Positions 13,909-61,662 of a stretch of 64,000 nucleotides of DNA are shown one piece after another. Every line of letters starts with the position of its first letter. Within the stretch, counting starts at the first letter, position 1. Origin of the DNA: Rugalucina vietnamica (lineage: Eukaryota > Mollusca > Bivalvia > Lucinida > Lucinidae); contig OZ024871.1 of assembly GCA_964017185.1 (NCBI GenBank), positions 62,671,226 to 62,735,225 on the forward strand. The letters are read 5' to 3'. The translations under genes and the position numbers were made by a program. Below the pieces are notes generated by a model. The model was not told where the DNA came from, did no database searches, and worked only from the letters and a program-made list of their open reading frames with translations.

Positions 13909-15400
13909 TTTTGCTAGAGTCTTCAAACGGGTGAAAACATCAGGAAAACATGTCCGTGTAAAGTATACCCCCTCAAACCCCACTTTTATTAGCTCACCTG
14001 AGCCGAAGGCTCAGAAGGTGAGCTTATAGGATGGCCATGATCCGGCGTCCGTCCGTCCGTCGTCCGTCGTCCACAATTTCAAAGATCTTCTTCTCTGAAA
14101 CCGCTTGGCCAATCAAAGTGAAATTTTATGTGGAGCATCCATGGGTAGGGGGAATTGAAGTTTGATCGCGAGTTTCAGGTCACATGACCAAGATGGCCGC
14201 CACGCCCATGGTAAAAACCACTAAAAAATCTTCTTCTCCAGAACCGGTGGGCCGATTTCCACGAAACTTAGTATGTTGCATCAAGGACTTCAGCCCATCA
14301 TAGTTTGATAAAATGATGACCCTTGGATGACCTTGACCTATTTTACGGCATGGTCAAATTTGGAAACATCGGCTTTTACATGGGAAAAAGTGAAAACTAT
14401 GGATTTTTTGAAAACTATTGCAGCCTGAGGTCTGAAAAAAGGTAGATGCAAACAACTAATGGAGTAGATGAAGGTATGTGATTAATTTAGGTCAAGGTCA
14501 TCTCTTGACCTTGGCCAGTCTGTCGTCCATACACACTTTTCAAAGATCTTCTTCTCTAAAACTGCTTGGCCAATCAAAGTGAAATTTTATGTGGAGCATC
14601 CATGAGTAGGGGAGATGAAAGTTTGATTGCGAAATCCAGGTCCCATTACCAAGATGGCCGCCACGCAAATATATGGTAAAAACCACTAAAAGATCTTCTC
14701 CAGCACTGGCATGCGGATTTTCATGAAACTTGGTATGTAGCATTTGGAACATCAGCCCATCATAGTTTGATCAAATGATGACCATACTAGGATGACCTTG
14801 ACCTATTTTACGACAAGGTCAATTTTGGAAACATAGGCTTTTACATGGGAAAAGGCGAAAACAGTGGATATTTTGGAAACTGGTGCAGCCTGAGACCTGA
14901 AAATTGCTAGATGCAGACAACTAATGGAGTCAATGAAGGTAAGTTATTAATGAAGGCCAAGGTCATTTCTTGACCTTGACCCAAGGTCATTTAAATATCA
15001 AAATTAAAATTATGGTTTCTTAGAAATCACTGGGTTTTGAAACTATTGCAGCCTGAGACCTGAAACTTTGCAGATGCAGACAACTTGTAAAGTCAATAAA
15101 GGTGTGTAAGTAATCAAGGTCGCGGTCATTTCATGATGAATCAGGCTTCAGGTGAGCGTTCTCAGGACCAATGGTCCTCTGGTTTAGTAAAGCTGGGGTA
15201 TGCAGGGGTTTACCTATTTTTTCTTATTTTTGCTTCAAAACACTGATTGTGGGTACTCGTTAGAACCGCCTCGGCGAGGCGGTTCTAACGTGTACCCACA
15301 ATCTATGTTTTGAGCAAAAATAAGAAAAATATCAGAAAAATTCTAATGAGATTTTTCATTTTTTTACAACCAAAAAAATTTCTGTATATTGCATGGGCAT
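13909..15400 (+). mobile_element. Hairpin P5-bearing element, split by a family A insertion
   Basis: The sequence before 13991 (GTAAAGTATACCCCCT...CCCACTTTTA) and after 15184 (GGGGTATGCAGGGG...) matches a continuous relic read on the minus strand at about 46680-46830, which lacks the family A element. The hairpin itself (15219-15330) has ~55 bp arms around CCTCG-CGAGG with core GTTAGAACCGCC. Outer borders are uncertain. Confidence 0.55.
13992..15183 (+). mobile_element. Family A element A1 (stem-loop, GTCC microsatellite, ~455-465 bp units)
   Basis: Flanked by TTA on both sides (13989-13991 and 15184-15186). The left end is a stem-loop (GCTCACCTGAGCC with its complement), followed by a GTCC-rich microsatellite (about 14046-14072). 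The body repeats a ~465 bp unit (starts near 14079 and 14544) with CCGCTTGGCCAATCAAAG and TGACCTTGACCTATTTTAC. The right end has CAGGTGAGCG (a single stem arm) and the palindrome GGACCAATGGTCC then CTCTGGT. No protein coding. The design resembles pearl/Helentron-associated non-autonomous elements. Confidence 0.8.
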
Positions 15401-15831
15401 GTTTTCATAATGATATGAAAAAAGCGCCTGTGGTCAAAGGCGTGATACCACTTTCGTAATATCAATTACATTTCATGAATATTAGATCAATCCTTCTGTT
15501 GACATTTCCTCGAATGTCCTGCTCAATCGATTGCATAAACTCATCAATTAATTTATATTCAAATATAACTATCCCCAAAGTTTGCTCAGAATAAAGTCTC
15601 TAATTACTTTCTCTGAATGCGTCTGTTCACTAAATGGAATTAAATTTGATCAAAGCCTTTTTCTAGCATTAAGCCTTGTAGTGGAAATTATTAATAACAA
15701 ATCGCAATAAAATATTAAAATTACTATTGATTTTTTTGGAGAAAAAATACGAGTTCTGGCATTAGATAGAACAACTAGTCCCAAAAAAGACAATAAATAC
15801 ACTCGTTAACTTCAAACTGCCGTCGAAAAAA
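15401..15831. other. 5' flank of receptor gene 2
   Basis: AT-rich, no gene. No convincing TATAAAA; the sequence just before the ATG is A-rich (CGTCGAAAAAA). Confidence 0.3.
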
Positions 15832-17184
15832 ATGTCCAGACTACTTTATTTTTTGTTATTTCTCGGAGGTACTGCTTCAGCGGAAAATAAAACGGTGACG
15901 GAGTTCGAACTGCATAAAAAACTTTTTGAATTTTACAACCCGGATATAATGCCAGTTCTTAATAAATCTGAACCGATCGAGATTACTATAGATATTTATG
16001 TGATGAATATAGATAACATAGATGAAAAGAGTCAAACTTTTACGATTCGAGCATTCCTAGAAAACAGGTGGACGGATCAGTTTCTGACGTGGAAACCGGA
16101 GGATTACGGTGGTATTAAGAGGATAAATGTGCGGAACGAGAACATCTGGCTACCAGACCTGGCACTGAACAATGTGTATGACAGTCCCACTAAGCTAGGA
16201 CAGCAGGACGGGCGGACAATAGTGGACTTTACCGGGCGAACAATAACATGGCCATATAAGATGTACCAAGTCGGGTGTAAAATAAACATCCGTCATTTCC
16301 CGTTTGACGTACAGGTTTGTGAGCTGGACTTTCTTTCTTGGACTAATCCTTACTCGGTACTGAAACTTACGACCTCGGATAAACTAAGTCTTTTCTATTA
16401 CAAAGAAAGTGCTGAATGGTCTCTGGATTCCTACGAAATAGATCATTATCAGAACCCCTACGGAGAGTATGACTCCTGGGACCACATTGCATTCCGCTTC
16501 ACCCTGAGACGAAAGTGGCTATTCCAAGTCCTGAACATGATAGCCCCGATTGTTTGTATTTCGTTCCTCAATCTTACTTGTTTTCTCATTCCCTCTGACT
16601 GTGGGGAGAAAATAACATTGTGTATCTCGATTTTCCTGACTTTGGCGGTGTTCCTCACGATAATAACTAGTTCGCTGCCGGAATCATCCGATGACACATC
16701 GTTGTTCGGCGTGTATGTTGGGTTACAGCTGCTGTGTAGCGGGCTAACTATTCTCGCTACCGTTATTTCATTACATCTCTACCACAAAGAGAAGACAAAT
16801 AAAGTTCCGCTCATGTGGCGGGCTCTGTCAGCCATGTGCTGCTTCGCCTCGTCGCCATCGTCAAATGATGCTGTTGGTCGACATCAGTGTTGCTCAAATG
16901 GACAGGTAACGACAGGGGAACAGCCATATTCAAATGGGCATGTATTCTCACCGGAACAGCCAAAAACATGCGGGCATGTAACGACGATGGAACAGCCATA
17001 TACAAATGGATACGTCCCGACCGTAGAGAAACCATCAATGTCAAAGAAACTTAAACGTTATTTCATGGACAATGACGTATCTTGGATCACCGTTTCACGG
17101 GCGTTTGACCGTCTTTGTCTTTGGCTTTCTATCATTTGGAATGTGTTACTTATTGTAGGTCTTGTTATTGCGTTCCAGAAATGA
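15832..17184 (+). CDS. Cys-loop ligand-gated ion channel subunit, nicotinic type, intronless (copy 2)
   Basis: A single 450-codon exon, clearly paralogous to copy 1 over its whole length. Signal peptide 1-17 (cut after ...GGTASA). Extracellular domain with WLPDLAL (106-112), LSWTNP and the Cys-loop CKINIRHFPFDVQVC (149-163). M1 about 229-253, M2 about 261-283 preceded by CGEK (cation-channel pattern), M3 about 291-316, M4 about 427-448. Loop C (YYKESAEWSL) again lacks the paired cysteines of alpha subunits. The M3-M4 cytoplasmic loop is longer than in copy 1 because residues 355-402 are four tandem 12-residue repeats of the type S/T-N-G-x-V-x-x-x-E-Q-P-Y; copy 1 has one related segment (TNGHMTTDE). 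Same strand as copy 1, 5.4 kb downstream, consistent with tandem duplication. A family A element begins 62 bp after the stop. Ligand and partner subunits unknown. Confidence 0.94.
   Translation: MSRLLYFLLFLGGTASAENKTVTEFELHKKLFEFYNPDIMPVLNKSEPIEITIDIYVMNIDNIDEKSQTFTIRAFLENRWTDQFLTWKPEDYGGIKRINVRNENIWLPDLALNNVYDSPTKLGQQDGRTIVDFTGRTITWPYKMYQVGCKINIRHFPFDVQVCELDFLSWTNPYSVLKLTTSDKLSLFYYKESAEWSLDSYEIDHYQNPYGEYDSWDHIAFRFTLRRKWLFQVLNMIAPIVCISFLNLTCFLIPSDCGEKITLCISIFLTLAVFLTIITSSLPESSDDTSLFGVYVGLQLLCSGLTILATVISLHLYHKEKTNKVPLMWRALSAMCCFASSPSSNDAVGRHQCCSNGQVTTGEQPYSNGHVFSPEQPKTCGHVTTMEQPYTNGYVPTVEKPSMSKKLKRYFMDNDVSWITVSRAFDRLCLWLSIIWNVLLIVGLVIAFQK
16894..17037 (+). repeat. 36 bp in-frame tandem repeat x4 in receptor gene 2
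   Basis: Four consecutive 36 bp units (16894, 16930, 16966, 17002) encode SNGQVTTGEQPY, SNGHVFSPEQPK, TCGHVTTMEQPY and TNGYVPTVEKPS in the cytoplasmic M3-M4 loop. Confidence 0.9.
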
Positions 17185-17246
17185 ATACCAGTTTTCATTA
17201 ATTTGTGAAGAAAATGACTTGGTGACAATGAACCTTGGTGTTTTTA

Positions 17247-18766
17247 GCTCACCTGAGCCGAAGGCTCACAGGTGAGCTTATAGTATACCCATGCTCCGGC
17301 GTCCGTCCGTCGTCTGTCGTCCGTCCGTCCAATTTCAAAGATCTTCTCCTCTGAAACCGCTTGGCCAATCAAAGCCAAACTTCATGTGGAGCATCCTTAG
17401 GAAGGGGGAACGAAAGTTTATATAAATGGTCCAGGTCACATGACCAAGATGGCCGCCATGGCTATAAATAGCAAAAACCTTTAAAAATCTTCTTCTCCAG
17501 AACCAGTGGGCCGATTTCCAAGAAACTTGGTATGTAGCATCAGGGACTAGGGCCCATCATAGTTTATATAAATCATGACCCTAGGATGACCTTGACCTAT
17601 TTTACGGCAAGGTCAACTTAGGTCGCCAATGCAATTGAATGGGAAAAAATGGTAAAATGCTATTTAATGGATAAAACTTACTGGGAATAGGCAAAATACA
17701 GAATATTAATGTTTATGGAAAATTTTTGCCCCTGGGGGGTTGTCTGCCCCTGCCCCGGGGCTATATATATGTATATTTCCTTAATAATGAAACATCTTCT
17801 CCCCTGAAACCGCTTGGCCAATCAAAGCCAAACTTCATATGGAGCATTCTTGGGAAAGGGGAAAGAAAGTTTATATAAATGGTCAAGGTCACATGACCAA
17901 GATGGCCGCCTTGGCTATAAACAGAAAAAAAAAACCTTTAAAAATCTTCTTCTCTAGAACCAGAAGACTAATGATTTTGAAACTTGGTGTGAAGCATCAG
18001 TGACTGGAGCTCTACAAAGTTTATATAAATCATGACCCTGGGATGACCTTGACCTAATTTACGGCAAGGTCAACATAGGTCGCTCATGCATTTGAATGGG
18101 GAAAAGTGTTAAAATGTCGTTTGTAGGGAAAAACTTGCAGGAAATGGGCAAATGGACTTAAGATTGATGATTCTGAAAAAATTTGGACACCAGGGGTCTG
18201 TCTGCCCCCACCCTGGGGCAATATAATGTATATTACAGTGATATTCAAAGATCTTCTTCTCTGAAACTGCTTGGCCAATCAAAGCCAAACTTTATGAGCA
18301 TTGTTAGGAAGTGGGAATGAAAGTATATATAAATGGTCAAGGTCACATGACCAAGATGGTTGCCATGGCTATAAATAGCAAAAACCTTTAAAAATCTTTT
18401 CCTCAAGAACCAGAAGGCCTTTGATTTTGAAACTTGACATGAAGCATCAGGCAATGGAGCTCTACAAAGTTTATATAAATCGTGACCCTTGCATGACCTT
18501 GACCTATTTCACGGCAAGGTCAACTTAGGTTGCCCATGCATTTGAATGGGGAAAATTGTTAAAATGTCATTTGAAGGGCAAAACTTGCAGCAAATTGGCA
18601 AATGGACTGAAGTTTTATGTTTTCGAATAGAAATTTGGACTCCAGGGGTTGCTCTGACCCGGCCCTGGGGTTATATACATGTATATGACCATTCTAGTGA
18701 AACAAGTTTATTGGTATATATCTCGGGTTTCATGTGAGCGTTTACAGGACCATTGATCCTCTGGTA
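17247..18766 (+). mobile_element. Family A element A2
   Basis: TTA at both edges (17244-17246, 18767-18769). Left stem-loop GCTCACCTGAGCC/GGCTCACAGGTGAGC, a GTCCGTCC microsatellite (about 17298-17330), then three ~455 bp units starting near 17336, 17793 and 18247. The right end carries ATGTGAGCG, a GGACCATTGATCC palindrome and CTCTGGT. Probably supplies the 3' UTR or polyadenylation environment of the receptor just upstream, which is inference. Confidence 0.8.
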
Positions 18767-22272: not shown

Positions 22273-23270
22273 TATCGCACCTGCTTATAGCAGGGTGCGA
22301 TATGGGAGTCCAAATTTCTGTCCGTCCGTCAGTCCGTCCGTTCGTTCATTCGTTCGTCCGTCCGTCAACATTTACGTCGAAGTTGGGTTTTCTCTACATC
22401 AGTGAGAGCTAGGAGTGTGAAACCTTGCATAGTAATTGTCCTTGACATACCCTTAAAGCACGCACCTTGACCCGGTGCCCTTGACCTATATTTCACGGTC
22501 CATTGACTTTGTTAATTTTTACGTCGAAGTTTCTTTTTCTCTGTATCAGTGATAGCTGTGAGTGTGAAACCTTGCATAGTTATTGTCCTTGACATACCCT
22601 TCAAGCACGCACCCTGACCTGGCTGACTTTGACTTTTATTTCACGGTCCATTGACTTTGTTAATTTTTACGTCAAAGTTTTGTTTTCTCTGCACTAGTGG
22701 TAGCTGCGAGTGTGAAACCTTGCATAGTAATTGTCCTTGACATACCTATCAAACACGCACCTTGACCCGGTGCCCTTGACCTATATTTCACGGTCCATTG
22801 ACTTTGTTAATTTTTTACGTTGAAGTTTCTTTTTCTCTGTATTAGTGATAGCTGTGAGTGTGAAACCTTGCATAGTTATTGTCCTTGACATACCCTTCAA
22901 GCATGCACCTTGACCCGCTGACCTTGGCCTTTATTTGACGGTCCATTGACTTTGTTAATTTTTACGTCAAAGTTTTGTTCTCTCTGCACTAGTGATAGCT
23001 GTGAGTGTGAAACCTTGCATAGTAATTGTCCTTGACATACCCTTCAAGCACGCACCTTGACCCGCTGACCTTGACCTATATTTCACGGTCCATTGACTTT
23101 GTTAATTTTTATGTCGAAGTTTGGTTTTCTCTGCATCAGTGATAGCTGCGAGTGTGAAACCTTGCATAGTAAATGTCCTTCACATACCCTTTCAGAACAC
23201 ACCTTAACCTGGTGCCCTCGACCTATATTTCATGTTTTTAGTTATTTTGCCCGATGCAGGTGCGATATCG
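22273..23270 (+). mobile_element. Family E element (stem-loop, GTCC microsatellite, 148 bp units)
   Basis: Left stem-loop CGCACCTGC-TTATA-GCAGGGTGCG (about 22276-22299), then a GTCC/GTTC microsatellite (22320-22370), then about six units of 147-148 bp (anchor CGGTCCATTGACTTTGTTAA at 22496, 22644, 22791, 22939, 23086). The right end carries a single arm GCAGGTGCGATATCG. Alternating units resemble each other more than neighbours. No coding. Confidence 0.8.
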
Positions 23271-23306
23271 ACCTCCGCGGAGTTCTTGTCTATTTTAAAA
23301 AGGTAC

Positions 23307-25240: not shown

Positions 25241-25624
25241 AATTTCGATCACTGTTTGTTTAAACCATAGATCTACGTCTAACAGTTTTATTTGCCAAAC
25301 TCCATATAAACGCTGGTCATATGATCAGCTGAATCCGCTATTAAACAAGAGTGGCATACTGGCAACCCACTGACATACGACAGTTTGTAGTGAAACGAAT
25401 GCAGCCTGGGGGTTTGTGTCTGAATTGTTGGTCTCACTTGCAATTTATGATGCTGCTTCCTTTTGTAAAAATTGATGATCTTACATTACAGTTTATGAAC
25501 CATTCTTGATGGCAGTAGGCACTATAATTAAGATGTAGGCTGCTAGTGCTAGGTCACTATTATAGTTGAGATCTTGATTTTGAAAAACTGATTTATAATT
25601 AAAACAATGTTTTCTGAGGAAAAC

Positions 25625-27843
25625 TATGTCCCCCCAACCGTTTAGTAATTGAAGTGTAGTTACCTTGTGATATGAAGTTTTTCTAGGGAAGACACCATGT
25701 AAGGTGTGATAGTTTAAACTTGTTTTGGACCCTGTCTAAAATTGGGTCACAATCACCAAATTCTTATAAACTCTGAACCTCCTCACAACAATGCTTCTGA
25801 GCAAGTTTGGTCAAAATCCATCAATTAGTTTACAAGATATCGTATCAGAAAAACTAATTTCAACAGTTTTTATGGACCCGTGACCTTGGAAATTAGGTCA
25901 AGGTCATCAAAATCTAATCAACTTTGAGCCTCCTCCAAACAATGCTTCTGTGCAAGTTTGGTCAAAATCCATCAACTGGTTTACAAGATATTGCAGTGAA
26001 AAGACTAATTTCAACATTTTTTTATGGACTCGTGACCTTGAAAATTAGGTCAAGGTCACCGAAATCTAATCAACTCTGAGCCTTCTCGCAACAATGCTTC
26101 TGTGCAAGTTTGGTCAAAATCCATCAATTGGTTTACAAGTTATCGAGTTGGAAAGATTAATTTCAACATTTTTTATGGACTCGTGACCTTGAAAATTAGG
26201 TCAAGATCACCAAAATCTAATCAACTCTGAGCCTCCTCCCAACAATGCTTCTGTGCAAGTTTGGTCAAAATCTGTCAATTGATTTACAAGATACTGCGTT
26301 GGAAAGACTAATTTCAACATTTTTTATGGACTTGTGACCTTGAAAATTAGGTCAAGGTCACCAAAATCTAGCCGACTCTGCGCCTTCTCGCAACAATGCT
26401 TCTGTACAAGTTTGGTCAAAATCCATCCATTCGTTTACAAGTTATCGCGTTGGAAAGACTAATTTTAACATTTTTTATGGACTCGTGACCTTGATTATTA
26501 GGTCAAGGTCACCAAAATATAATCAACTCTGAGCCTCCTCCCAACAATGCTTCTGTGCAAGTTTGGTCAAAATCCATCGATTGGTTTACAAGATACTGCA
26601 TTGGAAAGACTAATTTCAACATTTTTTATGGACTCGTGACCTTGAAAATTAGATCAAGGTCACCAAAATCTAATCAACTCTGAGCCTTCTTGCAACAATG
26701 CTTCTGTGCAAGTTTGGTCAAAATCCATCTATTGGTTTTCAAGATATTGAGTTGGAAAGACTAATTTCAACAGTTTTTATGGACTCGTGACCTTGAAAAT
26801 TCTGTCAAGGTCACCAAAATCTAATCAACTCTGAGCCTCCTCCCAACAATGCTTCTGTGCAAGTTTGGTCAAAAACCATCATTTGGTTCACAAGATATTG
26901 CATTGGAAAGACTAATTTCAACAGTTTTTATGGACTCGTGACCTTGAAAATTAGGTCAAGGTCACCAAAATCTAATCAACTCTGAGCCTCCTCCCAACAA
27001 TGCTTTTGTGCAAGTTTGGTCAAAGTCCATCAATTAGTTTACAAGATATCGTATCGGAAAAACTAATTTCAACAGTTTTATAGACTCGTGACCTTCAGAA
27101 TTAGGTCAAGGTCATCAAAATCTAACCAACTCTGAGCCTTCTCCCAACAATGCTTCTGTGCAAGTTTGGTCAAAATCCATCAATTGGTTTATAAGATATT
27201 GCGTTGGAAAGACTAATTTCAACATTTTTTATGGACTCGTGACCTTGAAAATTAGGTCAAGGTCACCAAAATCTAATCAACTCTGAGCCTTCTCGCAACA
27301 ATGCTTCTGTGCAAGTTTAGTCAAAATCCATCAATCGGTTTACAAGATATTGCATTGGAAAGACTAATTTCAACATTCTTTATGGACTTGTGACCTTGAA
27401 AATTAGGTCAAGGTCACCAAAATCTTATCAACTCTGAGCCTCCTCCCAACAATGCTTCTGTGCAAGTTTGGTCAAAATCCATCAATTGGTTTTCAAGATA
27501 TTGAGTTGGAAAGACTAATTTCAACAGTTTTTATGGACTCGTGACCTTGAAAATTAGGTCAAGGTCACCAAAATCTAATCAACTCTGAGCCTCCTCCCAA
27601 CAATGCTCTTGTGCAAGTTTGCTCAAAATCCATTCATTTGTTCAGAAGATATCGCGTCAGAAAACCTAATTTGATCAGTTTTCATGGGCTGGTGACCTTG
27701 AAAATGAGGTCAAGGTCACCAAAATCTAATCAACTCTTTCCCCCCTCCCAACCATGTATCTATGCAAGTTTGGTCAAAATCCATCCACTGGTTCAAAAGA
27801 TATCGCGTAAGAAAGAAGCTACGCGGACGCGGACGCCGACGCG

Positions 27844-27891
<48 letters not shown>

Positions 27892-27939
27892 AACCGCACC
27901 AAAAACAATATGTCCCCCACCTTCGGTTGGGGGGACATA
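25625..27939 (+). mobile_element. Family B element (fourteen 151 bp units, GGACGC microsatellite, stem-loop)
   Basis: Left end starts TATGTCCCCCC; right end is a stem-loop TGTCCCCCACC-TTC-GGTTGGGGGGACA at 27911-27937. Between them lie about 14 units with a nearly constant 151 bp period (anchor AACAATGCTTCTGTGCAAG at 25790, 25941, 26093, 26244 ... 27602). Most units carry GTGACCTTGA and TCAAGGTCAC as an inverted pair 8 bp apart. A (GACGCC)n tract fills 27821-27890. The element shows no real coding; the RTRTPTPTP-type frames arise from the hexanucleotide tract. Confidence 0.85.
27821..27890. repeat. (GACGCC)n tract
   Basis: Imperfect at the start, then regular hexanucleotides; part of family B. 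Confidence 0.9.

Positions 27940-35053: not shown

Positions 35054-35084
<31 letters not shown>
35041..35084. repeat. (AAAT)n microsatellite
   Basis: AATA tetranucleotides after a short A run. Confidence 0.95.
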
Positions 35085-35104
35085 CAAGCAAATTCAGAGA
35101 ATTT

Positions 35105-36597
35105 ATGTCCCCCACCTTAATTGTTTAGTTACACAAATATATCTGACAATAATGTACATCCAAATCACATGCATTTACTTCATGTCACAGTGTCAAACAT
35201 TAATCTGAGGATTATATTCAAACCACATGCAAATCTTCAAATCATGGTCAGGACATCTGTACAGTTTAAAAAGAATCAGAATAAAACTGAGGGAGGAGTT
35301 TGCACACAAGGTACACAATATCCATTCACTTTCATTGTATAAATGCCTGAAAAACGACTAAGTTCAAATTGCGAAAAATTAGGGGATAACTGTATTCAAA
35401 TTTTTCATTTGGGGCGGTATATCGTCGGATATACGGTCGGAAATTTTGTTTTACGGCGACGCGTTAGCGGAGCCGTAAAACATGATTTCCGACCGTATAT
35501 GCGACGATATACCACACCAAATGAAAAATTTGAATATTGTTATCCCCATTCTAATGTACTTTTTAACTATAAACATCGAAAAATGCTTTGTTTTTCACGA
35601 AATGTGAGCGTGACGAGCGACGTATAACCACGACGTTAACCAATCAGAAGCGACGTTGCTCATGACGTTAGGTTTCCGACGGTACATCGCAGAATATACT
35701 GTCGCAAATTTTTGACGTTATCCAATAAGACGTCGCGTAACATTCTCGAGTGCATTAGAAGTGTCAAAAATTAACCTGAGGATTATATCCAAAGCACATG
35801 CATATCTTAAAAGCATCATCAAGACATCTGTAAAGTTTCAAAAGAATCTGAATTAAAAACTGAAGGAGGAGTTGCGCACACAAGGCACCCACTGTCCATT
35901 CACTTTCATTGTCAAAATACCGAAAAACGACTAAGTTCAATTTGCCAAAAAAAGTGTCAAAAATTAATCTGAGGATTATATCCAAACCACATGCACATCT
36001 TCAAAGTATGATGAAGACATCTGTAAAGTTTCAAAATAATCGGAATAAAACTGTAGGAGGAGTGGCGCACACAAGGTACCCTTTGTCTATTCACTTTCAT
36101 TATCAAAATGCCCGAAAAATGACTAAGTTCAAATTGCAAAAAAAGTGTCAAAAATTAATCTGAGGATTATATCCAAACCACATGCACATCTTCAAAGCAT
36201 GATAAAGACATCTGTAAAGTTTCAAAAGAATTGGAATAAAACTGTAGGAGGAGTTGCGCACACAAGGTACCCACTGTCTATTCACTTTTATTATCAAAAT
36301 GCCCGAAAAATGATGACTAAGTCCAAATTGCGAAAAAAGTGTCAAAAATTAATCTGAGGATTATATCCAAACCACATGCACATCTTCAAAGCATGATGAA
36401 GACATCTGTAAAGTTTCAAAAGAATCGGAATAAAACTGTAGGAGGAGTTGCGCACACAAGGTACATACTCCTATAGGGGGACGGAAGGACGCAAGGACGG
36501 GCGGAAGGACGGACGGACTGACGGACGGAAGAACGGACGGAAGGACGGAAAGCCAAAAACTATGTCCCTCCGCTTTTCTTCGAAAAGGCGGGGGACA
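35105..36597 (+). mobile_element. Family C element (192 bp units, GGAC microsatellite, stem-loop), split by hairpin P6
   Basis: Left end TGTCCCCCACC; right end stem-loop at 36563-36597 with a TTC centre (TGTCCCTCCGC and GCGGGGGACA). Units anchored by GTGTCAAAAATTAATCTGAG start at 35191, 35761, 35954, 36145 and 36339 (191-194 bp apart once the insertion is removed). A GGAC-rich microsatellite (about 36478-36550) precedes the stem-loop. Confidence 0.8.
35379..35760. mobile_element. Hairpin element P6 inserted in family C
   Basis: Arms of ~80 bp (35379-35458 and 35472-35554; core GACCGTATAT and CAAATTTTTCATTT) around GACGCGTTAGCG. It is followed by an ACGTC-rich region with CCAATCAGAAGCGACG, then a third diverged single arm copy (CGACGGTACATCGCAGAATA) near 35680-35710. 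Removing 35379-35760 restores the ~192 bp period of the host array. Confidence 0.7.
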
Positions 36598-38363: not shown

Positions 38364-38965
38364 TTATGTAAGTAGGTCAGTCTCAAACTTTTTAGAGTAG
38401 TCTACGCGCTGGCGCGTACACAATATCACCATGTACCGCTCACCTCAGCAGGTAACTCGCACGTTAAAGAAATAAAATGAATATTATATATAAATTAAAC
38501 GTATCCCCCTTTCAATTAAACATTTATGTTTATGATGGTTTTAATTACGAGCTTGTTTGCCGTGGAACTTTATTTCTTTTTCATGAATTTTAGAGAGGGG
38601 GCAGCTGACATTGTTTCTTGATAAGGTGGTTAAAAAGTGTGCGCATGCGCAGAGCAAATCTTTCCCGATCTGCATTATTTAAGACGACGAAAATTTCTCA
38701 TTCAACTTTAATCGAAATGAAAATCAGTTTTTAGCATGTAATACCCTAATATCCCATAAATAGGAATCATACAGCAACAAACCTGAAATTATCATCGTTT
38801 TACCCCATTTTAAACTCGAAAATCCCCGGTGACCTATTGTTGCATCAGGTTATTTTTTTATTTTATTTTTATTTATTTATTCATTTTTTTGTTCAGTGTT
38901 TAATGCATGTATAACCAGAGGACCAATGGTCCTGTAAACGCTCACCTGAGACCTAGTTAAGCTAG

Positions 38966-39669
38966 TATCTCACTGGCATGCGAATTTCTCGCGACTGTTT
39001 TGCGAATTTTGTCGCGGACTTTCGCACGACATTCGTGCGAGTGTCGCGCGAGTGTCGTGAGAATTTTCTTGTGTCGCGAACTGGTCGCGAAGTTTTTCAA
39101 CATGTTGAAAAATTTTATGCGAATTCTTTCTCCAAAATATTTCGCAAGACTGTCGCACGACTGTCGTGCGACGGTCGCGCGACGTTCATGCGAGTGTCGC
39201 GAACTTGTCGCCGCGAAATTTTGGCGAATTTACAATGCGAAATTTTGGCGACACTCGTACGAATGTCGCGCGAGTGTCGCACGACCGTCGCGCGACAGTC
39301 TTGCGAAAACCTCGCGACTATCTGGCGAGAAAATAAAACTAAGCGACATTCGTACGATTGTCGCGCGACACTCGCACGAATGTCGCGCGACTGTCGTACG
39401 AATTTAAATGAAAATAAGTTACATTCGCGGGAAAGTCGTGAGACACTCTCACGAATGTCGCGCGACTGACGTGCGACAGTCGCGCGACTATCGCGCGACA
39501 ATCGCGCGATATATTTTCAAAATTACACCGAAATTCGCGAATTTGTCGCATAAATGTCTATTCAATGAGACTGCAACGTGAAAGTTGTGTTTATATCGTT
39601 TATCTTTGTCGCTAAATAGTCGCGAACTATTCGCAAACTAGTCTCCAGTTGTCGCATTCCAGTGAGATA
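38966..39669. mobile_element. 704 bp MITE made of GTCGCGCGAC iterons
   Basis: Terminal repeats TATCTCACTGGCATGCGA (38966-38983) and its near complement (39652-39669). The interior is almost entirely degenerate ~10 bp copies of TGTCGCGCGA/CGTGCGAC in both orientations, giving CpG density far above its surroundings. Overlapping open frames on both strands are a by-product of the repeats. Confidence 0.8.
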
Positions 39670-40114
39670 GGGGCTTTATCACTTTTTCGATGTAAAAGCC
39701 TATGTTTCCAAAATTAACATTGCAGTAAAATAGATCAAGGTCATCCTAGGTTCATCATATGTACAAGCTATGATTGGCTGAAGTCTTAAATGCTACATAC
39801 TGAGATTCGTGAAAATTGGCCAGCCGGTTCTGGAGAAGAAAATTTTTGAGTGGTTTTTACCAGGTATGGGCATGGCAGCCATCTTGGTGACCCGGGTTTC
39901 ACGATCAAACTTTTTGATTCCCCCTACCCATGGATGCTCCACATAAAATTTCACTTTGATTGGCCAAGGGGTTTCAGAGATGAAAATGTTTGAAAAGTGT
40001 GTATGGACATGGTTAAGAGATGACCTTGATCTAAATTAATCACAAACCTTCATCTACTCCATTAGTTGTTTGCATCTACCACTTTTCAGGTCTCAGGCTG
40101 CAACAGTTTACAAA

Positions 40115-42081
40115 CCAGAGGACCAATGGTCCTGTAAACGCTCACCTGAGACCTGAGATATATACCAATAAACTTGTTTGACTAGAATGGTAATATACAT
40201 GTATATAACCCCAGGGCAGGGTCAGAGCAATGTCTGGAGTCAATTTCTTTTTTAAATCATAAAGATTCATGATCAGTCCATTTGCCAATTTATTGCAAGT
40301 TTTGCCCTTCAAATGACATTGTAACAATTTTCCCCATTTAAATGCATGGGCAACCTAAGTTGACCTTGCCGTAAAAAAGGTCAAGGTCATCTCAGGGTCA
40401 TGATTTAAACAAACTTTGTAGAGCTCCATTGCTTGATGCTTCATGCCAAGTTTCAAAATCATAGGCCTTCTGGTTCTGGAGAAGAAGATTTTTAAAGGTT
40501 TTTGCTATTTATAGCCATGGCGGCCATCTTGGTCACGTGACCTTGACCAACTTGACAAACTTTCATTTACTCTTCCTAAGAATTCTCCTCATAAAGTTTG
40601 GCTTTGATTGGCCAAGCGGTTTCAGAGAAGAAGATGTTTGAACATTATGGTCATACACATGTATAAAGCCCCTGGGCAGGGGCAGACAACCCTCTGGGCC
40701 AAAAACATTTTCATAAACATGAATATTCTGTCCATTTTCTCATTCCTAGCAAGTATTTGCCATTAATTGACATTTTCTTATTTTTTTCCCATTCAGTTGC
40801 ACGGGCGGCCTAAGTTGACTTTGCTGTAAAAAAGGTCAAGGTCATCCCAGGGTCATGATTTATATAAACTTTGTAGAGCTCCATTGCCTGATGCTTCATG
40901 CCAAGTTTCAAAATCATAGGCCTTCTGGTTCTGGAGAAGAAGATTTTTAAAGGTTTTTGCTATTTATAGCCATGGCGGCCATCATGTGACCTTGACCATT
41001 TATATAGACTTTCATTCACTCTTCCTAAGAATGCTCCACATAAAGTTTCGCTTTGATTGGCCAAGCGGTTTCAGAGAAAAAGATGTTTGAATAATTTGGT
41101 CATACACATGTATATTGCCCCAGGGTGGGGGCAGACAGACCCCTGGGGTCCAAATTTTTTCAGAATCATCAATCATAAGTCCATTTGCCCATTTCCTGCA
41201 AGTTTTTCCCTACAAATGACATTTTAACACTTTTCCCCATTCAAATGCATGAGCGACCTATGTTGACCTTGCCGTAAAATAGGTCAAGGTCATCCCAGGG
41301 TCATGATTTATATAAACTTTGTAGAGCTCCAGTCACTGATGCTTCACACCAAGTTTCAAAATCATTGGCCTTCTGGTTCTGGAGAAGAAGATTTTTAAAA
41401 ATTTTTTCTATTTATAGCCATGGCGGCCATCTTGATCATGTGACCTTGACCATTTATACAAAGTTTCTTTCCCCCTTCCCAAGGATGCTCCACATGAAGT
41501 TTGGCTTTGATTGGCCTAGCGGTTTCACGGGAGAAGATGTTTGAATATTATGGTCATATACATGTATATAGCCCCAGGGCAGGGGCAGACAGCCCCCCAG
41601 GGGCTAAAATTTTCCATTAACATTAATCTTCTGTCCATTTGCCTATTCCCAGTAAGTTTTAGCCATTAAATAGCATTTTACCATTTTTTCCCATTCAAAT
41701 GCATTGGCGACCTAAGTTGACCTTGCCATAAAATAGGTCAAGGTCATCCTAGGGTCATGATTTATATAAACTATGATGGGCCCGCGTCCCCGATGCTACA
41801 TACCAAGTTTCGTGGAAATCGGCTCACTGGTTCTGGAGAAGAAGATTTTTAAAGGTTTTTGCTATTTATAGCCATGGCGGCCATCTTGGTCATGTGACCT
41901 GGACCATTTATATAAACTTTCGTTCCCCCTTCCTAAGGATGCTCCACATGAAGTTTGGCTTTGATTGGCCAAGTGGTTTTAGAGGAGAAGCTCTTTGAAA
42001 ATGGTGGACGACGGACGACGGACGGACGCCGGAGCATGGGTATACTATAAGCTCACCTGTGAGCCTTCGGCTCAGGTGAGC
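40115..42081 (-). mobile_element. Family A element A3b, nested in A3a
   Basis: Complete copy: ends CCAGAGGACCAATGGTCC (left) and GCTCACCTGTGAGCC stem-loop (about 42052-42081), with a GGAC microsatellite at 42003-42031. Four units at ~455 bp spacing (GATTGGCCAAGCGGTTTCAG near 40606, 41054, 41512, 41966). It splits the A3a phrase ...CTGCAACAGTTT / AAAAATCCATAG. Confidence 0.8.
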
Positions 42082-42449
42082 TAAAAATCCATAGATTTTA
42101 CTTTTTCCCATGTAAAAGCCTATGTTTCCAAAATTGACCTTGCTGTAAAATAGGTCAAGGTCATCCCAGGGTCATCATTTTATCAAACTGTGATGGGCTG
42201 GAGTCACCGATGCTACATACCAAGTTTTGTTGAAATCGGCCCACCGGTTCTGGACAAGAAAATTTTTGAGTGGTTTTTACCATATAAGTGCGTGGCGGCC
42301 ATCTTGGTCATGTGACCTGGATTTTGCGATCAAACTTGAAATGCCGCTACCCAAGGAGGCTCCACATAAAATTTCAACTTGATCGGCCAAGCGGTTTCAA
42401 AGGAGAAGATCTTTGAAATTGTTGACGATGACGGACGGACGACGGACTC

Positions 42450-43320
42450 AAGGGCACCTAACTCCGCAGTCCATGGTCAAATCTCGTGGAATTCTAAACT
42501 CAACCGAGATCTCATGGCTGTCCTTGTTACATGGAAGAATGAAGAAGATCTGATCAAAAATAACAAAGTTAATGCGTGGACACCATTTTCCCATTATAAG
42601 TCTATGGGGATTTTTTTCAAACGCTCAAGGGCAGATAACTCCACGGCCCCTGGTCGGATCTGGCAGAATTTTGAACTCGTTCGAGCTCTTATGTATGTTG
42701 TTGTTCCTTGTGAGTATGGAAAAGGTCTAATTGAAAATAGCGGAGATAATGCGTGGACAACATTTTCTCCATACGAAGTCTATGGGGATTTTTTCAAACG
42801 CTCAAGGGCAGATAACTCCGCGGCCCGTGGTCGGTTCTGGCTGAATTTCGAACTCGTCCGAGCTCTTTTGTATGTTGTTGTTCCTTGCAAGTATTGAAAA
42901 GATCCAATTGAAAATAGCGAAGATAATGCGTGGACAACATTTTCTCCATACAAAGTCTATGGGGATTTTTTCAAACGCTCAAGGGCAGATAACTCCGCAG
43001 CCCGTGGTCGGATCTGGCTGAATTTCGAACTCAACCGAGATCTTATGTATGTTGTTTGTCCTTGCAAGTATGGAAAAAATCCAAATGAAAATAGGGGAGA
43101 TAATGCGTGGACACCATTTTCCCATTATAAGTCTATGGGAATTTTTTAAACGCTCAAGGGCAGATAACTCCGCGGCCCGAGATCGGATCTGGCTGAATTT
43201 CGAACTCATCCAAGTTCTTATGTAAGTTGTTGTTCCTTTCAAGTATGGAAACGATGCAATTGAAAATAGCGGAGATAATGCGTGTACAACATTTTCTCCA
43301 TACAAAGTCTATGGGAGTTG
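42450..43320 (+). repeat. Five 177 bp tandem units (type G)
   Basis: Anchor AAGGGCAGATAACTCC at 42450, 42627, 42804, 42981 and 43156. Because 177 is a multiple of three, a 172-codon frame (42379-42897) reads through as 59-residue repeats (FKRSRADNSAARGRFWLNFE); probably not a gene. Confidence 0.85.
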
Positions 43321-43571
43321 TCTGTTGCCATAGCAACCAGAGTTCGAATTCGATCTGCTTTAAAACCTAATGCAGGCAATGCCCCACCACAATGATGCTG
43401 CATATAAAGTTTGATTATGATCGGCCAACTGGTCTCAGAGATATTCATCTTTGAAATTGTGGACGACGGACGACGGACGGACGCCGGATCATGGTCATCC
43501 TATAAGCTCACCTTGTGAGCCTCGGACGACGGACGGACGCCGGATCATGGTCATCCTATAAGCTGAGCTAA

Positions 43572-43789
43572 TAATCAATTTGCAGACAAGATACAGTAGA
43601 AATTGTATATCGAGGGAGCAGCTATTTAAAAAAAAAGGTGGCGATTCAACTATCTAAAGCAAACCAAATCCGATATAAAAGTACAAATGTATGCAAGTTT
43701 ACTGTATAAATATTACTCAACATACATGTATATTAGCAATACTTAAACCGAAATCAACATGATAAACATAATGAAACTCAATAACGAAC
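43572..43789. other. Short AT-rich spacer
   Basis: Nothing recognised. Confidence 0.3.
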
Positions 43790-46830: not shown

Positions 46831-49147
46831 CATGTGAAGTCAACATTTTTCTAAAATGAACTTAAAAATTATGAAATACCTACATATGTAAAAAGTCCAT
46901 CAAGGGACGTTTGGGATTACAATTCAATGGCATTTAATTGACAACAATCAGCTGCAATGGAGTTCACTGGAAATGATTAACAATCATTTACCTTTTTTAA
47001 AACTTTACAAAGTTTTACCTCATCACCTGGTTTATTTCATTCCTCTAACATGTACACAAATTTTATTGTTTAGACAATGAAATTTGACAATTTCAGGTGG
47101 TTTAAACATCAATTTACCAGACACAAACGCGTTTGATTTTAAAAAGACGCAAAGATCCAGTGGTCTAACTTTAAAGGCCTAGGGAGTTTAAGGTCTGTAT
47201 CATAGTTTGGTAAGAATGTATTTTGGTATTTAGATGAGAAAAGTATTCTTAAAAGCAGCCCTATGACTCCTCTTTTAAAATCCAGAACAATATCTTCGGT
47301 CATCCTATAAGCGTTGCCATGGTTACGTAGGAAGAACCATAGATGGAGCACATTTTGCACTTTTTGGCTCATTTTGGCCATTTCTGATGATAATTTTTAA
47401 TTTACGCAACAATCAAATTAATACCTTGCATACAATGTCTGGATGATACTTCATAATTATTTCATATTAAGAAATTGTTTCTCGCATGGGCAATTGTTAA
47501 TAGTGGAAAATAAAAGTGAAAATAATGTTATTTATATGTTTTTTGAGCGTTGCCATGGCAACATTGATAAGTTGAATGAAAACGTTTCACTAGATCTTAA
47601 AATCTGGGAACATATACCTGTTATTTGTACTTCTTTTCTCATCACAATCCAAAATTCAATTTTTTACGAAAACCATTTTCACTTTCATTGAGGAGTTGTT
47701 GATTTCTCCATGATGGCAGCATATATCATTTGAAATATCACAACCAACCAATTAAATGCCTACTGTTGGTCATTTTCAAAACAAAGTTAAGAGCAAAAGA
47801 AGTATCGTGTATATTTTCTTTTACCTCTCATTAAACCTTTATTTCCCTTAAATATCAAACTTTTGCCCTTGTAATTTGAACTTTAGCGCATCTTATCCGT
47901 AGATGGATTTTTAAACAGGCTATCTCTTCACTGTGGACAGTCTTCCACTATTTATTTAGATGATCAGTGGTCCTGTAAACCTATCTTGATACCTGGTAAC
48001 TTGATACCTGGTATGAAGTTAGATACAAAACAATGTCCTTGTACATAGACCTAGGAGGACAACCCCATGCAGTCAAATACTAGTATACTGCACAGACATC
48101 AATCTTTGTCTATCCTCCTATTTCATGCAATATTTTACCTTATCATGATTCTCTCACAGGTGCCTAGACGACCTATTAAAGTTGACCTTGCCTTTAAATG
48201 GATCAAGGTCATCCAAAGGTCAAGATAATAAAGGAAACTGATGAAATGTTTGTGGCTAGTGTCTTCAAAGAAGGTTACATAGGTTACTAAGTTACATGTA
48301 TATAAAATAAAAAAATGCATCTGCTCATCCCAATAAACACAGAATCTATCTCATGTTAGGAAGTTACATGACATTCTTTCACCTAGCTATTATAAGTTAC
48401 TGGTGAACGGATGAGCATTCAGTAGCAGTAAATCCTCTGAAAAGGTAAAAGTTAGCAATGATCAGGAACCAAGTGCTATCAGAACCAAAATGCAAACCTA
48501 TATACCCAGGTGAGAAAAAACAAAAACAACATTTAGGTACTAGTACAAAGAGCTGAGTGAAAAAACAAGTGGTTACTCAGTTACGGTAACTGTTACCTGA
48601 ACTTAACTAAATATACAATGTATGACTTAAAACACACAAAAGGCACAAACAGCACAAAAAATGACACTAGAACATAACACAAATAGAACCACAACAGAAG
48701 TACATAGGCTGTCCGGAAAGTTTTGAGACTGTAACTATATCTCAGTAGCAGCTTGAGAAAATGAACTGAAATTTTACACATGAACAAGTCAACATACTGT
48801 GAGTTATTGCGGAAAATTTCATTTAATCATTTTAATATCTGCATGTTACTACTCTCAGAGCACTTTGACGTCAACAGTGTAACGTCTGTTAAAATTTTAA
48901 AGAATTTTACTGCCAATCTGATGCCTTTTCCGAGGCTTTCCGTCCCATTGGGCACTAACATTTGATACAAATATGTTACATTTGATTAATCTGAGGACAA
49001 CAGTTTATTCTAATTTAAAGAACACACTCCAGTTCTCATGTAGCCAGCTCCTAATTGCTTTACACCCATTTCAAGATTGCTACTTTTTCTCTCATACATT
49101 AGACTGTCTGTTGCCCTTTCCCCAACTAGAATTGTCAGAGGATCTGA
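46831..49147. other. Spacer without a recognised gene
   Basis: About 47955-48230 holds a decayed family A piece on the minus strand (AGTGGTCCTGTAAAC; TTGACCTTGCCTTTAAATGG). Near 48706 GGCTGTCCGGAAAGTTTTGA resembles a mariner-type end but has no partner. The small frames have no motifs. Confidence 0.35.
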
Positions 49148-50057
49148 CTATAGCCCAGCTTCTGACTTTTTTTCAAGGGTAACAATCCCAATCTAAATCT
49201 TGTTAATTTTGATGCACATAAAAAGATAGATAAGATACTGTCAATTCGTTCTAAAGAAATTGAGCGGAAACATAATTCTGATGTCAATCACGGGCCGAAA
49301 CTCCGTCAAAATTTGGCAAAAAATGACGGGGGCAACAATCCCAAGCTAGATCTTGTCAATGTTGATGTGCATACAAAATTTCATTAGATTCTGTTGATTC
49401 ATACTCAAGACATTGAGTGGAAATGAAATTCTAACGTCAATCAAGGGCCGTAGCTCTGTCAAAATTTTGCGAAAAATGACAGGCAACAATCCCAAGCTAG
49501 ATCTTGACATAATGCTGATGTGCATACAAATTTTGGTTAGATTCTGTCAATTGTTCTCAAGATATTGAGCAGAAATCCCAGCAACAATCCCAAGCTAGAC
49601 CTTGTCAATGTTGATGTGCATACAAAATTTGGTCAGATTCTGTCAATTTGTTCTCAAGATATTGAGTGGAAACGAAATTCTAAATAAATCAAGGGCTGTA
49701 ACTCTGTAAAAGTTTTGCAAAAAACGACGGGTAACAATTCCAAGCTAGGTCTTGTCAATGTTGATGTGCATACAAAATTTGGTCAGATTCTGTCAATTCG
49801 CTCTCAAGATATTGAGCGGAAACGAAATTCTGACGTAAATCAAGGGCTGTAACTCCGTCAAAATTTTGCAAGAAAAATGTGAAATGATCCCAAGCTATGT
49901 CTTGTCAATGCTGAAGTGTTTACAAAATTTGGTAAGATTTTGTCAATTTGTTCTCAAAATATTGAGTGGAAACCAAATATTCACGGAATCACGGAAAGAC
50001 GGAATGACGGAAGGACTGGGTGAATCCAGTATAGCCCCACTCCCAAAGTGGGGCTAT
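49148..50057 (+). mobile_element. Family D element D1 (~150 bp units, GGAA/GACGG microsatellite, stem-loop)
   Basis: Left end CTATAGCCCAGC; right end stem-loop TATAGCCCCAC-TCCCAAA-GTGGGGCTATA (50030-50057). Units of about 96-152 bp are anchored by AAGGGCCGTAACTC and CAATCCCAAGCTAG. A short GGAAAGACGGAATGACGG tract precedes the stem-loop. Confidence 0.8.
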
Positions 50058-50380
50058 AATTAATTTGTGCATACAAAATTTGGTCAGATTCTGTCAATTC
50101 TTTCTCAAGATATTGAGTGGAAAGGAAATTCTGACGTCAATCAAGGGCCGTAACTCAGTGGAAATATTGCCAAAAATAGTGGTTAACAATCCCAAGCCAG
50201 ATATTGTCAATATTGATGTGCATACAAAGTTTGGTCAGATTCTGTCAATTCGTTCTCAAGATATTGAGCAGAAACAAAATTATGACGTCAATCAAGGGCC
50301 GTAACTCCATCTAAATTTGCGAAAAATGACGGGCAACAATCCCAAGCTAGATCTTGTCAGTGTTAAAATGCATACAAAAG

Positions 50381-53632: not shown

Positions 53633-54694
53633 TTTGGTCAGATTCTGTCCATTCATTCCCAAGATATTGAGCGGAAATGAAATTCTGATGTCAATCAAGG
53701 GCCGTAACTCCGTCAAAATTTTGCGAAAAATGACGAGCAACAATCCCAAGTTAAATCATGTCAATGTTGTTGTGCATATAAAATTTGGTCAATTTCTGTC
53801 AATTCCTTCTCAAGATAATGATCGGAAACAAAATTCTGACGTCAATCATGGGCCGTAACTCCATCAAAATTTTGCAAACAAAATGGCGGGCAACAATCCC
53901 AAGCTAGACCTTGTCAATGTTGATGTGTATACAAAATTTGGTCAGATTTTGTCAATTTGTTCTTAAGATATTGAGCGGAAACGAAATTCTTACGTCAATC
54001 AAGGGGCGTAACTCCATCAAAATTTTGCGAAAATTGACAGGCAACGATACCAAGCTAGATCTTGTCAATGTTGATGTGCATACAAAATTTCGTAAGATTC
54101 TGTCAATTCTTTCTCGATATTGAGTCAATCAAAGGCCGAAACTCAGTAAAATATTGCCAAAAATAGTGGTTAACAATCCCAAGCCAGATATTGTCAATAT
54201 TGATGTGCATACAAAGTTTGGTCAGATTCTGTCAATTCGTTCTCAAGATAATGAGCGGAAATGAAATTATGATGTCAATCAAGGGCCGTAACTCCATATT
54301 TTTGCGAAAAATGACGGGCAACAACATTAATCCCCAGCTAGATCTTGTCAATGTTAATATGCATACAAAATTTGGTCAGATTCTGTCAATACATTTTCAA
54401 GATAATTTAAGCGGAAACAAAATTATGACGTCAATAAAGGGCCGTTACTCCATGGGCCGTAACTCCATCTAAATTTTGCGAAAAATGATGGGCAACAATC
54501 CCCAGCTAGATCTTGTCGACGTTAATATGCATACAAAATTTGGTCAGATTCTGTCCATTCATTGTCAAGATATTGAGCGGAAACGAAATTCTGATGTCAA
54601 TCACGGAATCACGGAACCAAGGAAGGACAGGGTGAATCCAGTATAGCCCCACTTTTCCAAAGCAGGGCTATAATTAACCATACCTTTGCTAAAA

Positions 54695-55110: not shown

Positions 55111-55114
55111 GGTG

Positions 55115-56511: not shown

Positions 56512-56551
56512 ATTTGATGGAAAATCTAATAAGTTCGTTTTTTTGGAAGTG

Positions 56552-58490: not shown

Positions 58491-59035
58491 TGGTGAAATA
58501 TTGTCAATTTGGCATATCACCAGTAAACCATTCAGATTCAGAATTTGATTTAGACAACAAAAATACACTAACTGATGTTCTACTTGTAGACCAATGTCTC
58601 CAATGGTATACATTTTTCGACTAAATTCTTTTCACAGTTTATTCACGAATCCTTTACACCCCCTTTCACTCGAGTTTGCCATTTCAGCATTTAGGTCAAT
58701 AAAGTTTTTGTATAAATCAGGTAATTTTTAGTTTATTTTAGAACTGAAACAGTGTCCCAGATGCCAGGTGTTCTTAATTCTATGCAGCATTTATCTTTAA
58801 GAAAATTATGTCACCTCTTCTGATAAAAACATTGTAATTGTTTGGTTAAAGCACATTTTTATTTCAAAATTCTTTGCACGACATATAAAATGCATATTAA
58901 GAACACAAATTTGAAATAGGATAGGGACAAAAGCAGAATTTTATCAATTTTGTCAGTTATCTATCAGTATCTGCATGGCCTCCACATTTACCCCTCCTCA
59001 AAACAAGTACCCCAAAGGCAACGATCCCTCACCTA
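58491..59035. other. Spacer without a recognised gene
   Basis: No motif or repeat identified. Confidence 0.3.
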
Positions 59036-60605: not shown

Positions 60606-60622
60606 TGAGCTCAGGCTTTTAG

Positions 60623-61662
60623 CTCACCTGAGCCGAAGGCTCACAAGGTGAGCTTATAGCCATGATCTGGTGTCCGTCATAATCCATAAATTCAAAGATC
60701 TTCTCTTCTGAAACTGCTTGGCCAATCAAAGCCAAACTTCATGCGGATCATCCTTAGGAAGGAGGAACGAAAGTTTATATAAATGGTTCAGGTCACATGA
60801 CCAAGATAGCCATCATGGCTATAAATAGCAAAAACCTTAAAAAATCTTCTTCTCCAGAACCAGCAGGCCTATGATTTTGAAACTTGGCATGAAGCATCAG
60901 GGAGAGGAGCTCTACATAGTTTATATAAATCATCACCCTGGGATGAACTTTACCTATTTTACAGCAAAGTCAACATAGGTCGCCTATGCATTTGTATTGA
61001 ATGGGGGAAAATTGTCAAAATGTCATTTAAAGGGAAAAACTTAAAGGAAATGGGCAAATGGACTGAAGATTTATGAATCTGAAAAAAATTGGACCCTACG
61101 GGCTAGTGTGCCCCTACCCTGGGGCAATATACATGTATATTACCATAATATTCAAAGATCTTCTTCTCTGAAACCGCTTGGCCAGTCAAAGCCAAACTTC
61201 AATTGGAGCATCCTTAGGAAAGGGGAATGAAAGTTTATACAAATGGTCCAGGCCACATGACCAAGATGGCTGCCATGGCTATAAATAGCAAAAACCTTTA
61301 AAAATCTTCTACAGAACCAGAAGGCCTATGATTTTGAAACTTGGCATGAAGCATCAGGTAGAGGAGCTCTATAAATCATGACCCTGGGATGACCCTGACC
61401 TATTTTATGGCAAGGTCAACATAGATTGCCCATGCATTTAATGGGGGAAATTGTCAAAATGTCATTTGAAGAGAAAATTGTGCATTGTGGACTACAGTAC
61501 TACAATGTGCACATATGACCCTGTGATGACCTTGGCCTATATTATGGCAAAATGAAATTGACCCCAGGGGTTCATCTGTCCCTGCCCTGAATAGTCCAAC
61601 AAGTTTATTGGTATATATCCCAGATCTCATGTGAGCATTTACAGGACCATTGGTCCTCTGGT
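60623..61662 (+). mobile_element. Family A element A4
   Basis: TTA at both edges (60620-60622, 61663-61665). Left stem-loop GCTCACCTGAGCC..., a nearly lost GTCC tract (TGTCCGTC), two units (near 60692 and 61152) and the right end ATGTGAGC, GGACCATTGGTCC, CTCTGGT. Confidence 0.8.

Follow-up and report, generated by a model that had tools for sequence, protein, structure and literature searches.

Five families of repeats, A to E, share one layout in a 64,000-nucleotide stretch of the genome of the bivalve Rugalucina vietnamica (1.09 Gb in 47 contigs). This stretch, C3:62671226-62735225, is called the window; coordinates are window positions unless another contig (C1 or C9) or a stretch of the same genome fetched for comparison (L056, L070, and so on) is named. 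We present here evidence that the five families are, with high confidence, nonautonomous Helentrons (HINEs) of the Helitron2 group. Their building plan is already described, and they are new examples of it. By sequence comparison, D, E, and a subtype of A (A-II) share termini (3′ ends) and array sequence with autonomous Helentrons of Rep-helicase clades K1, K4, and K7, respectively, which probably move them. Tying HINE families to protein-coding Helentrons on these grounds is new relative to the study of the Pacific oyster (Vojvoda Zeljko et al. 2020, PMC7492417).

Layout, polarity, and insertion sites

Read from the 5′ end, the order common to the families is a T-rich flank, a 5′ hairpin, a microsatellite, a tandem array, one inverted arm, and the terminus; A to D have an extra short hairpin between the inverted arm and the terminus. 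The distances from the last arm base to the terminus are 26 nt in A, 22 nt in B, 21 nt in C, 24 nt in D, and 23 nt in E, and the window copies end in CTGGT, ATTGT, CTTGT, CTAGT, and CTTGT, respectively. The 3′ boundaries of A-II, D, and E are backed by several copies. Those of B and C were placed by analogy; the window copy of B is the sole complete copy seen, and a second C copy with both ends lies at L081:817-about 1937. Folding as single-stranded DNA was run on one 5′ hairpin from each family, and each beat 200 of 200 shuffles (z scores of −7.1 for A, −3.9 for B, −6.1 for C, −6.5 for D, and −6.9 for E). Fold support for the 3′ hairpins is modest (z scores of −1.7, −2.3, −2.0, and −1.6 for A to D). 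Beyond the hairpin, A1, A3, B, C, D1, and E each contain a single inverted arm word of 8 to 12 letters, and the same word arises in 0 to 20 of 2000 letter-shuffled bodies.

An original prediction, made from the letters of the window, had given each family a terminal stem-loop, which was found at the positions in Table 1, and a single copy of the stem arm at the far end, which is present in A1 to A4, B, C, D1, and E but not in D2. Pattern scans found no far 3′ arm for D2, which is probably truncated. The elements do not end at the far arm as had been supposed: the terminus lies 21 to 26 nt beyond it, and the 3′ hairpin of A to D had been missed. Most elements carry a microsatellite, but the GGAC/GTCC type is not universal, as that of B (27821-27889) is a GACGCC hexamer, that of D is of a degenerate ACGGAA type, and A4 is nearly without one. 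Array units of about 150 to 190 bp or multiples thereof agree with the output of Tandem Repeats Finder (TRF), which gives 454 to 465 bp for A1 to A3, 147 bp for E, 151 bp for B, 191 bp for C, and 150 to 168 bp for D; TRF lists no internal array in A4. The arms differ between families, as predicted, but the stems, compared by letters, are not all clearly unrelated. B and C have 8 matching positions, a likeness reached by 289 of 5000 shuffles, and A and E have 7, reached by 211 of 5000 (both uncorrected for ten pairs).

Family A provided genome-wide counts. The genome holds 33,868 exact copies of the 13-letter A arm and 5 of the reversed pattern. Counts for the A 5′ hairpin (intact stem letters and a bulge of 0 to 6 nt) and for the A 3′ end (an arm followed by a hairpin and CTNGT) are 15,509 and 23,302, respectively, each with a reversed control of 0. 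At up to three mismatches, the 5′ hairpins number 14,018 for A, 811 for B, 3,241 for E, and 1,116 for C, and the window copy is the only genome match to the D pattern at this threshold; D copies outside the window diverge, and D-type 3′ ends occur in L058, L005, and L071. The variable base of CTNGT was tallied in 86 A 3′ ends: 67 carry G, 13 carry A, 5 carry T, and 1 carries C.

The ends of A pair in fixed polarity. For 62 of the 100 A 5′ arms that come first on C1, a same-strand A 3′ end lies within 6 kb downstream (median distance, 1.96 kb); other placements comprise 13 upstream on the same strand and 2 and 2 on the opposite strand. This polarity, the sharp 3′ boundaries of A-II, D, and E, and the A empty sites described below speak against the arrays being ordinary satellites whose similar flanks arose by chance or by segmental duplication. 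The arrays do look satellite-like, and related repeats form satellites in the oyster (PMC7492417), but we reject this explanation as having virtually no probability.

The fetched DNA contains ten A elements with both ends, and empty sites were sought for the six that have at least 40 bases of flank per side. Uninterrupted paralogues crossing the junction were found for three of the six testable copies (A3, L067, and A1), and no such paralogue was found for A2, A4, or L058. The empty site of A3 is an older A array, reading GGA-TTTTTT-GAAAAC at window position 14365 and in relatives. That of L067 is another A array, clean against L008 and reading GGATTTTTCAG in L003. That of A1 is a repeat resembling a miniature inverted-repeat transposable element (MITE), clean against L079; against L090 and L007 the aligner split the alignments, yet BLAST crosses the junction. 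The junctions show T-run targets, no target duplication, and about two extra T, assignable neither to the element nor to the target.

The inverted arms at both ends, the short size, and the high copy number might instead suggest MITEs or fold-back elements moved by a terminal inverted repeat (TIR) transposase. The repeats are, however, asymmetric, being terminal at the 5′ end but 21 to 26 nt inside the 3′ end; the three A empty sites lack a duplication; and D, E, and A-II share ends with Rep-helicase elements. We therefore regard TIR-driven movement as extremely improbable and reject it.

Autonomous Helentrons and their links to A-II, D, and E

In a Helitron_like_N profile search, 150 of 409 candidates were scored; those listed all exceed the cutoff, and many of these 150 matches lie in open frames of 2,500 to 3,500 aa. 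At a 60% identity threshold, 30 fetched Reps form seven groups with 32 to 58% mutual identity, K1 (L011-15, 17, 19-23), K2 (L016, L018), K3 (L024), K4 (L031-32), K5 (L025-27, 29-30), K6 (L028), and K7 (L033-38), and two singletons, L009 and L010, distant from all others. Pfam searches of open reading frame (ORF) pieces predict DUF6570 and Helitron_like_N in K7, K5, K4, and K1. The K2 piece has Helitron_like_N alone, with DUF6570 in a separate upstream frame, and an N-terminal piece of K1 (L078) gave no Pfam match. PIF1 was matched in K7 and K5 and weakly in K4. The endonuclease domain is above the cutoff in K5 (1.3e-11) and weak in K7 (0.0016 and 0.0037); in K1, K2, and K4 this region lies outside the fetched DNA.

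The window copies of A are of type A-I, which has the hairpin and 3′ arm of A-II, another spacer, and the CTGGT end; in A-II elements, the 5′ hairpin is followed by GGATAGGCAGGC. Under the 11-bp rule for subterminal inverted repeats (subTIRs) of Thomas et al. (PMC4067079), A-I and A-II would be different subfamilies of one family. L070 and L083 each lie downstream of a K7 Rep; they share 99.6% identity across 832 bp and diverge within 3 nt of the A-II 3′ terminus, CTCAGGTGAGCTACAGGACCAATGGTCCTCTAGT. The A-II 3′ terminus is as in K7 in L056 (95.9%) and L088 (94.5%) over 73 bp and in L044 (83.8%) over 99 bp. An A-II array also lies upstream of a K7 ORF (L093); the match between L056 and L093 starts 81 bp after the hairpin start and covers 1,450 L056 bases at 97%, followed by 206 bp at 98.5%. 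L056 continues into an open frame of 266 aa, which matches Herpes_teg_N weakly (E value, 8.5e-4, under the cutoff). Given this match to L093 and the Herpes_teg_N-like frame, the 5′ portion of an autonomous element may be what L056 represents. Domains of the Herpes_teg_N type are known in Helentrons (PMC9741609).

For E, the 3′ region of a K4 copy matches at 85% over 437 bp, including the array and terminus, and diverges after CTTGT. For D, a K1 copy has the D array upstream of its ORF (78 to 80% over 804 to 864 bp) and the D terminus downstream (89% over 46 bp); D1, K1, L058, and L005 diverge after TTCTAGTT. In one K2 copy, with a Rep at 38.6% identity to that of K7, an A-type 3′ end follows the Rep by about 3.8 kb and is 91.7% identical to A1 over 36 bp. 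Provisionally, A ends would thus be common to two Rep clades, K2 and K7; the sharing is provisional because a nested A element is possible at the K2 copy.

Several points weigh against reading the families as HINEs moved by these partners. The 3′ hairpin of E has no fold support (z score of +0.4), and the K4 copy does not keep the hairpin either. The A-II 3′ end was found at two of the four Reps treated as K7; two with an assumed K7 clade (C9 L084 and C1:9286323 L092) have no A-II 3′ end at the same offset. The K2/A, K4/E, and K1/D links each come from one autonomous copy, and no autonomous copy was followed over its whole length between 5′ hairpin and 3′ terminus. No matching 5′ hairpin was found in the upstream DNA read for the K1, K2, K4, and K7 ORFs; the farthest upstream K1 stretch read still starts inside the D array. 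Empty sites were demonstrated in family A only. The original prediction had proposed looking for an autonomous Helentron sharing the ends, and 3′ ends and arrays matched for D, E, and A-II; no partner was established for A-I, the type of the window's A copies, or for B or C, and the DNA read near one Rep each of K1b, K1c, K3, and K5 gave no convincing B or C 3′ ends.

Two candidate links were dropped. An A hairpin near C1:9276549 had suggested a K7 5′ end 9.77 kb upstream, but L089 to L091 have no hairpin at the same offset and the expected A 3′ end is missing (L092). A C hairpin 16.7 kb upstream of a K1b Rep was set aside, as L085, where its C 3′ end should lie, has none.

If the families are HINEs, the Rep-helicase of the partner would nick at the T/hairpin 5′ end, one strand would be peeled off by rolling-circle replication, and replication would stop at the 3′ hairpin and CTNG, after which the strand would be pasted at a T run. 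The 3′ asymmetric terminal inverted repeat (ATIR) could pair with the 5′ ATIR, opening the 5′ hairpin as an end-point switch, as suggested by Bao and Jurka (2013, PMC3627910), who proposed that ATIR pairing destroys the 5′ hairpin and so sets the replication end point. The arrays presumably originated in autonomous elements and changed in copy number afterward; since autonomous flanks carry the same array sequence, an origin of the repeats in the autonomous element is favored over capture by the small ones. Bivalve genomes receive satellite-like repeats from array-carrying HINEs, and the oyster study was unable to identify the drivers of these elements (PMC7492417).

Known systems and what the enzyme reads

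Helitron2 is defined by a 5′ ATIR that pairs with downstream nucleotides as a hairpin and by an asymmetric inverted arm, the subterminal 3′ ATIR, above a 3′ hairpin (PMC3627910). All five window families likewise have a 5′ ATIR folded into a hairpin, and the inverted 3′ ATIR, placed about 20 to 60 bp inside the 3′ end in Helitron2, lies 21 to 26 nt inside it here. Family A inserts in T-rich sites without duplication, as Helitron2 and Helentrons do; Helitron-1N1_CRe inserts between TTTT and T/C with no duplication, whereas the Helitron2 elements CRe-1, 2, and 3 have target duplications (PMC3627910). The arrays, microsatellites, and CTNGT ends of the window families depart from that definition. 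Helitron1 elements, such as Helraiser, have a 3′ hairpin followed by a CTAG-like end, as here (PMC4778049), but start with 5′-TC, insert at A/T, and lack a 5′ hairpin (PMC3627910, PMC5148889); ATIRs are present in the window families and A starts with (T)TA and the hairpin, although the CTGG and CTAG ends do resemble CTRR.

The likeness to HINE/DINE-1 elements that had been proposed is borne out by their published layouts (PMC4067079, PMC7492417). HINE/DINE-1 elements and Helentrons (Thomas et al. 2014, PMC4067079) have palindromic subTIRs and a palindrome at the 3′ end, insert at TT, hold microsatellites and tandem repeats in a portion of their copies, and have an autonomous partner with Rep, helicase, and endonuclease; among the clades linked here, the endonuclease match is the weak one of K7. 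The families differ from those of Thomas et al., and array sequence is seen here in partner flanks too. In Cg_HINE elements of the Pacific oyster, the left flank consists of a subTIR, a complementary inverted repeat, and a microsatellite, as here, GTCC-like in several; a central array follows, and the right flank holds a subTIR and a palindrome (PMC7492417). Some Cg_HINE families are mutually unrelated in sequence yet have the same layout (PMC7492417). The likeness is drawn from layout descriptions, and the authors were unable to tie the Cg_HINEs to autonomous Helentrons, in contrast to the three links given here. A hairpin at one end and an arm at the other, offered as a new rule, is thus already present in PMC3627910 and PMC7492417. 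Pearl elements of bivalves are described as having short central arrays with units of about 160 bp, as here (PMC7492417), and the oyster genome holds Helitron-like elements with CTAG ends, of which 257 of 751 have subTIRs (PMC7992393). FoHeli1/2 of Fusarium have an ATIR and a 5′ hairpin with the same GAA loop that closes A, B, and C; they are fungal, end in ATTTT, and have no endonuclease domain reported (PMC5148889). In a literature search with subscription journals mostly outside its coverage, no title among the matches listed links array-carrying bivalve HINEs to partners, and a search with the A arm letters gave no transposon paper by title among the matches listed.

It had also been claimed that structure, not sequence, is what the enzyme reads. 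In its strict form, the Rep-helicase would read structure only, and one common enzyme would move any 5′ hairpin with a matching far arm. The three-arm relation is indeed kept in all families although the arms differ, compensatory base changes preserve features in two related Helitron2 elements (PMC3627910), and Helraiser retained about 90% activity when the stem of its 3′ hairpin was swapped and the loop kept (PMC4778049). Against this, a loop change in Helraiser acted like hairpin deletion (PMC4778049), the arm type changes with the Rep clade (K7 for A-II, K1 for D, and K4 for E, from few copies each), and the common CTNGT-like end is itself sequence. Compensation was evaluated at one stem pair of A, C6-G2′, with copies that are nonindependent events. 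Genome-wide, 15,509 pairs are intact, 227 are changed in the 5′ arm only, and 286 are changed in the inverted arm only; 11 double changes were counted, against 4.4 expected by independence, comprising four Watson-Crick pairs, two G-T pairs, and five unpaired. There is no sign of restored pairing at this pair. The changes look like decay, and the excess of double changes fits older copies gathering more of every change. As stated, then, the claim is unsupported, and structure-only reading is very unlikely. The data favor an enzyme that knows its own arm within a common architecture over one that reads shape only; pairing matters too, given the compensatory changes of Bao and Jurka (PMC3627910).

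A C-GAA-G triloop caps the 5′ hairpin in each of A, B, and C, and from family to family the stem varies jointly with the far arm. DNA hairpins of the GCGAAGC type are unusually stable. The Helentron Rep might conceivably read a fixed loop, together with the CTNGT end, on a freely varying stem, such that arms need only match each other; this is a doubtful proposal. It parallels the Helraiser 3′ hairpin, in which the stem is exchangeable and the loop is not (PMC4778049), and, if true, one enzyme type could tolerate fast turnover of arm sequence. The hairpins of D and E have no GAA loop, which speaks against a universal form of the proposal. The genome counts of A, B, and C are no independent test of the loop, as the search patterns contained GAA, and the loop represents at most a few independent cases, as B and C may share ancestry. 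No title among the matches listed in the literature search treats the GAA loop. Matched pairs of HINEs and Helentrons are usable to test which terminal features Rep reads.

Window elements and neighboring features

The elements of the window are given in Table 1. The region of A3 holds two nested elements; array remains of the older one surround A3 at about 39676-40113 and 42082-42440 (extent by eye).

Table 1. Window positions, strands, and parts of the family A to E elements
Element	Ends	Position	Strand	Parts
A1	Both	13992..15183	+	5′ hairpin 13992-14023; microsatellite; array; 3′ arm, hairpin, and CTGGT 15149-15183
A2	Both	17247..18765	+	5′ hairpin 17247-17277; 3′ end 18731-18765, arm with one mismatch
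E	Both	22274..23289	+	5′ hairpin 22274-22301; 147-bp array 22371-23232; arm and CTTGT 23256-23289
B	Both	25604..27938	-	5′ hairpin 27910-27938; 151-bp array 25738-27816; arm, hairpin, and ATTGT 25604-25639
C	Both	35084..36597	-	5′ hairpin 36563-36597; microsatellite 36479-36549; 191-bp array 35759-36464; 3′ arm, hairpin, and CTTGT 35084-35116
Older A	3′	38914..38948	-	Seemingly interrupted by A3
A3	Both	40114..42081	-	5′ hairpin 42051-42081; 3′ end 40114-40148; nested in older A array
D1	Both	49125..50058	-	5′ hairpin 50030-50058; array of about 150-bp units; arm, hairpin, and CTAGT 49125-49159
D2		53633..54672	-	5′ hairpin 54642-54672; array 53633-54604
A4	Both	60622..61662	+	5′ hairpin 60622-60653; 3′ end 61628-61662, arm with one mismatch

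A1 is an insertion within the MITE-like repeat mentioned above (about 13930-15340; relatives in L079, L090, L007, and L059), which carries a perfect hairpin (GTTAGAACCGCCTCG...). The C array is broken at about 35385-35755 (by eye) by an insert with long inverted repeats. Outside the window, an A-II 3′ end lies about 70 to 95 bp upstream of another same-strand A-II 5′ hairpin in L056 and L088, as if these were neighboring insertions, and L061 has a second partial hairpin copy within about 60 bp after its A 5′ hairpin.

Between A1 and A2, positions 15832-17184 (+) hold an uninterrupted 450-codon gene predicted to encode a Cys-loop ligand-gated ion channel (Neur_chan_LBD, 1.7e-47; Neur_chan_memb, 2.3e-20). 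A cluster of degenerate 22-bp palindromic repeats of the GTCGCGCGAC type is located at 39148-39509. A 177-bp array occupies 42447-43580 (-); its A-like 5′ end, near 43500, is degenerate and duplicated in part, and positions 43292-43465 are 78% identical over 174 bp to L093, the stretch upstream of a K7 ORF.

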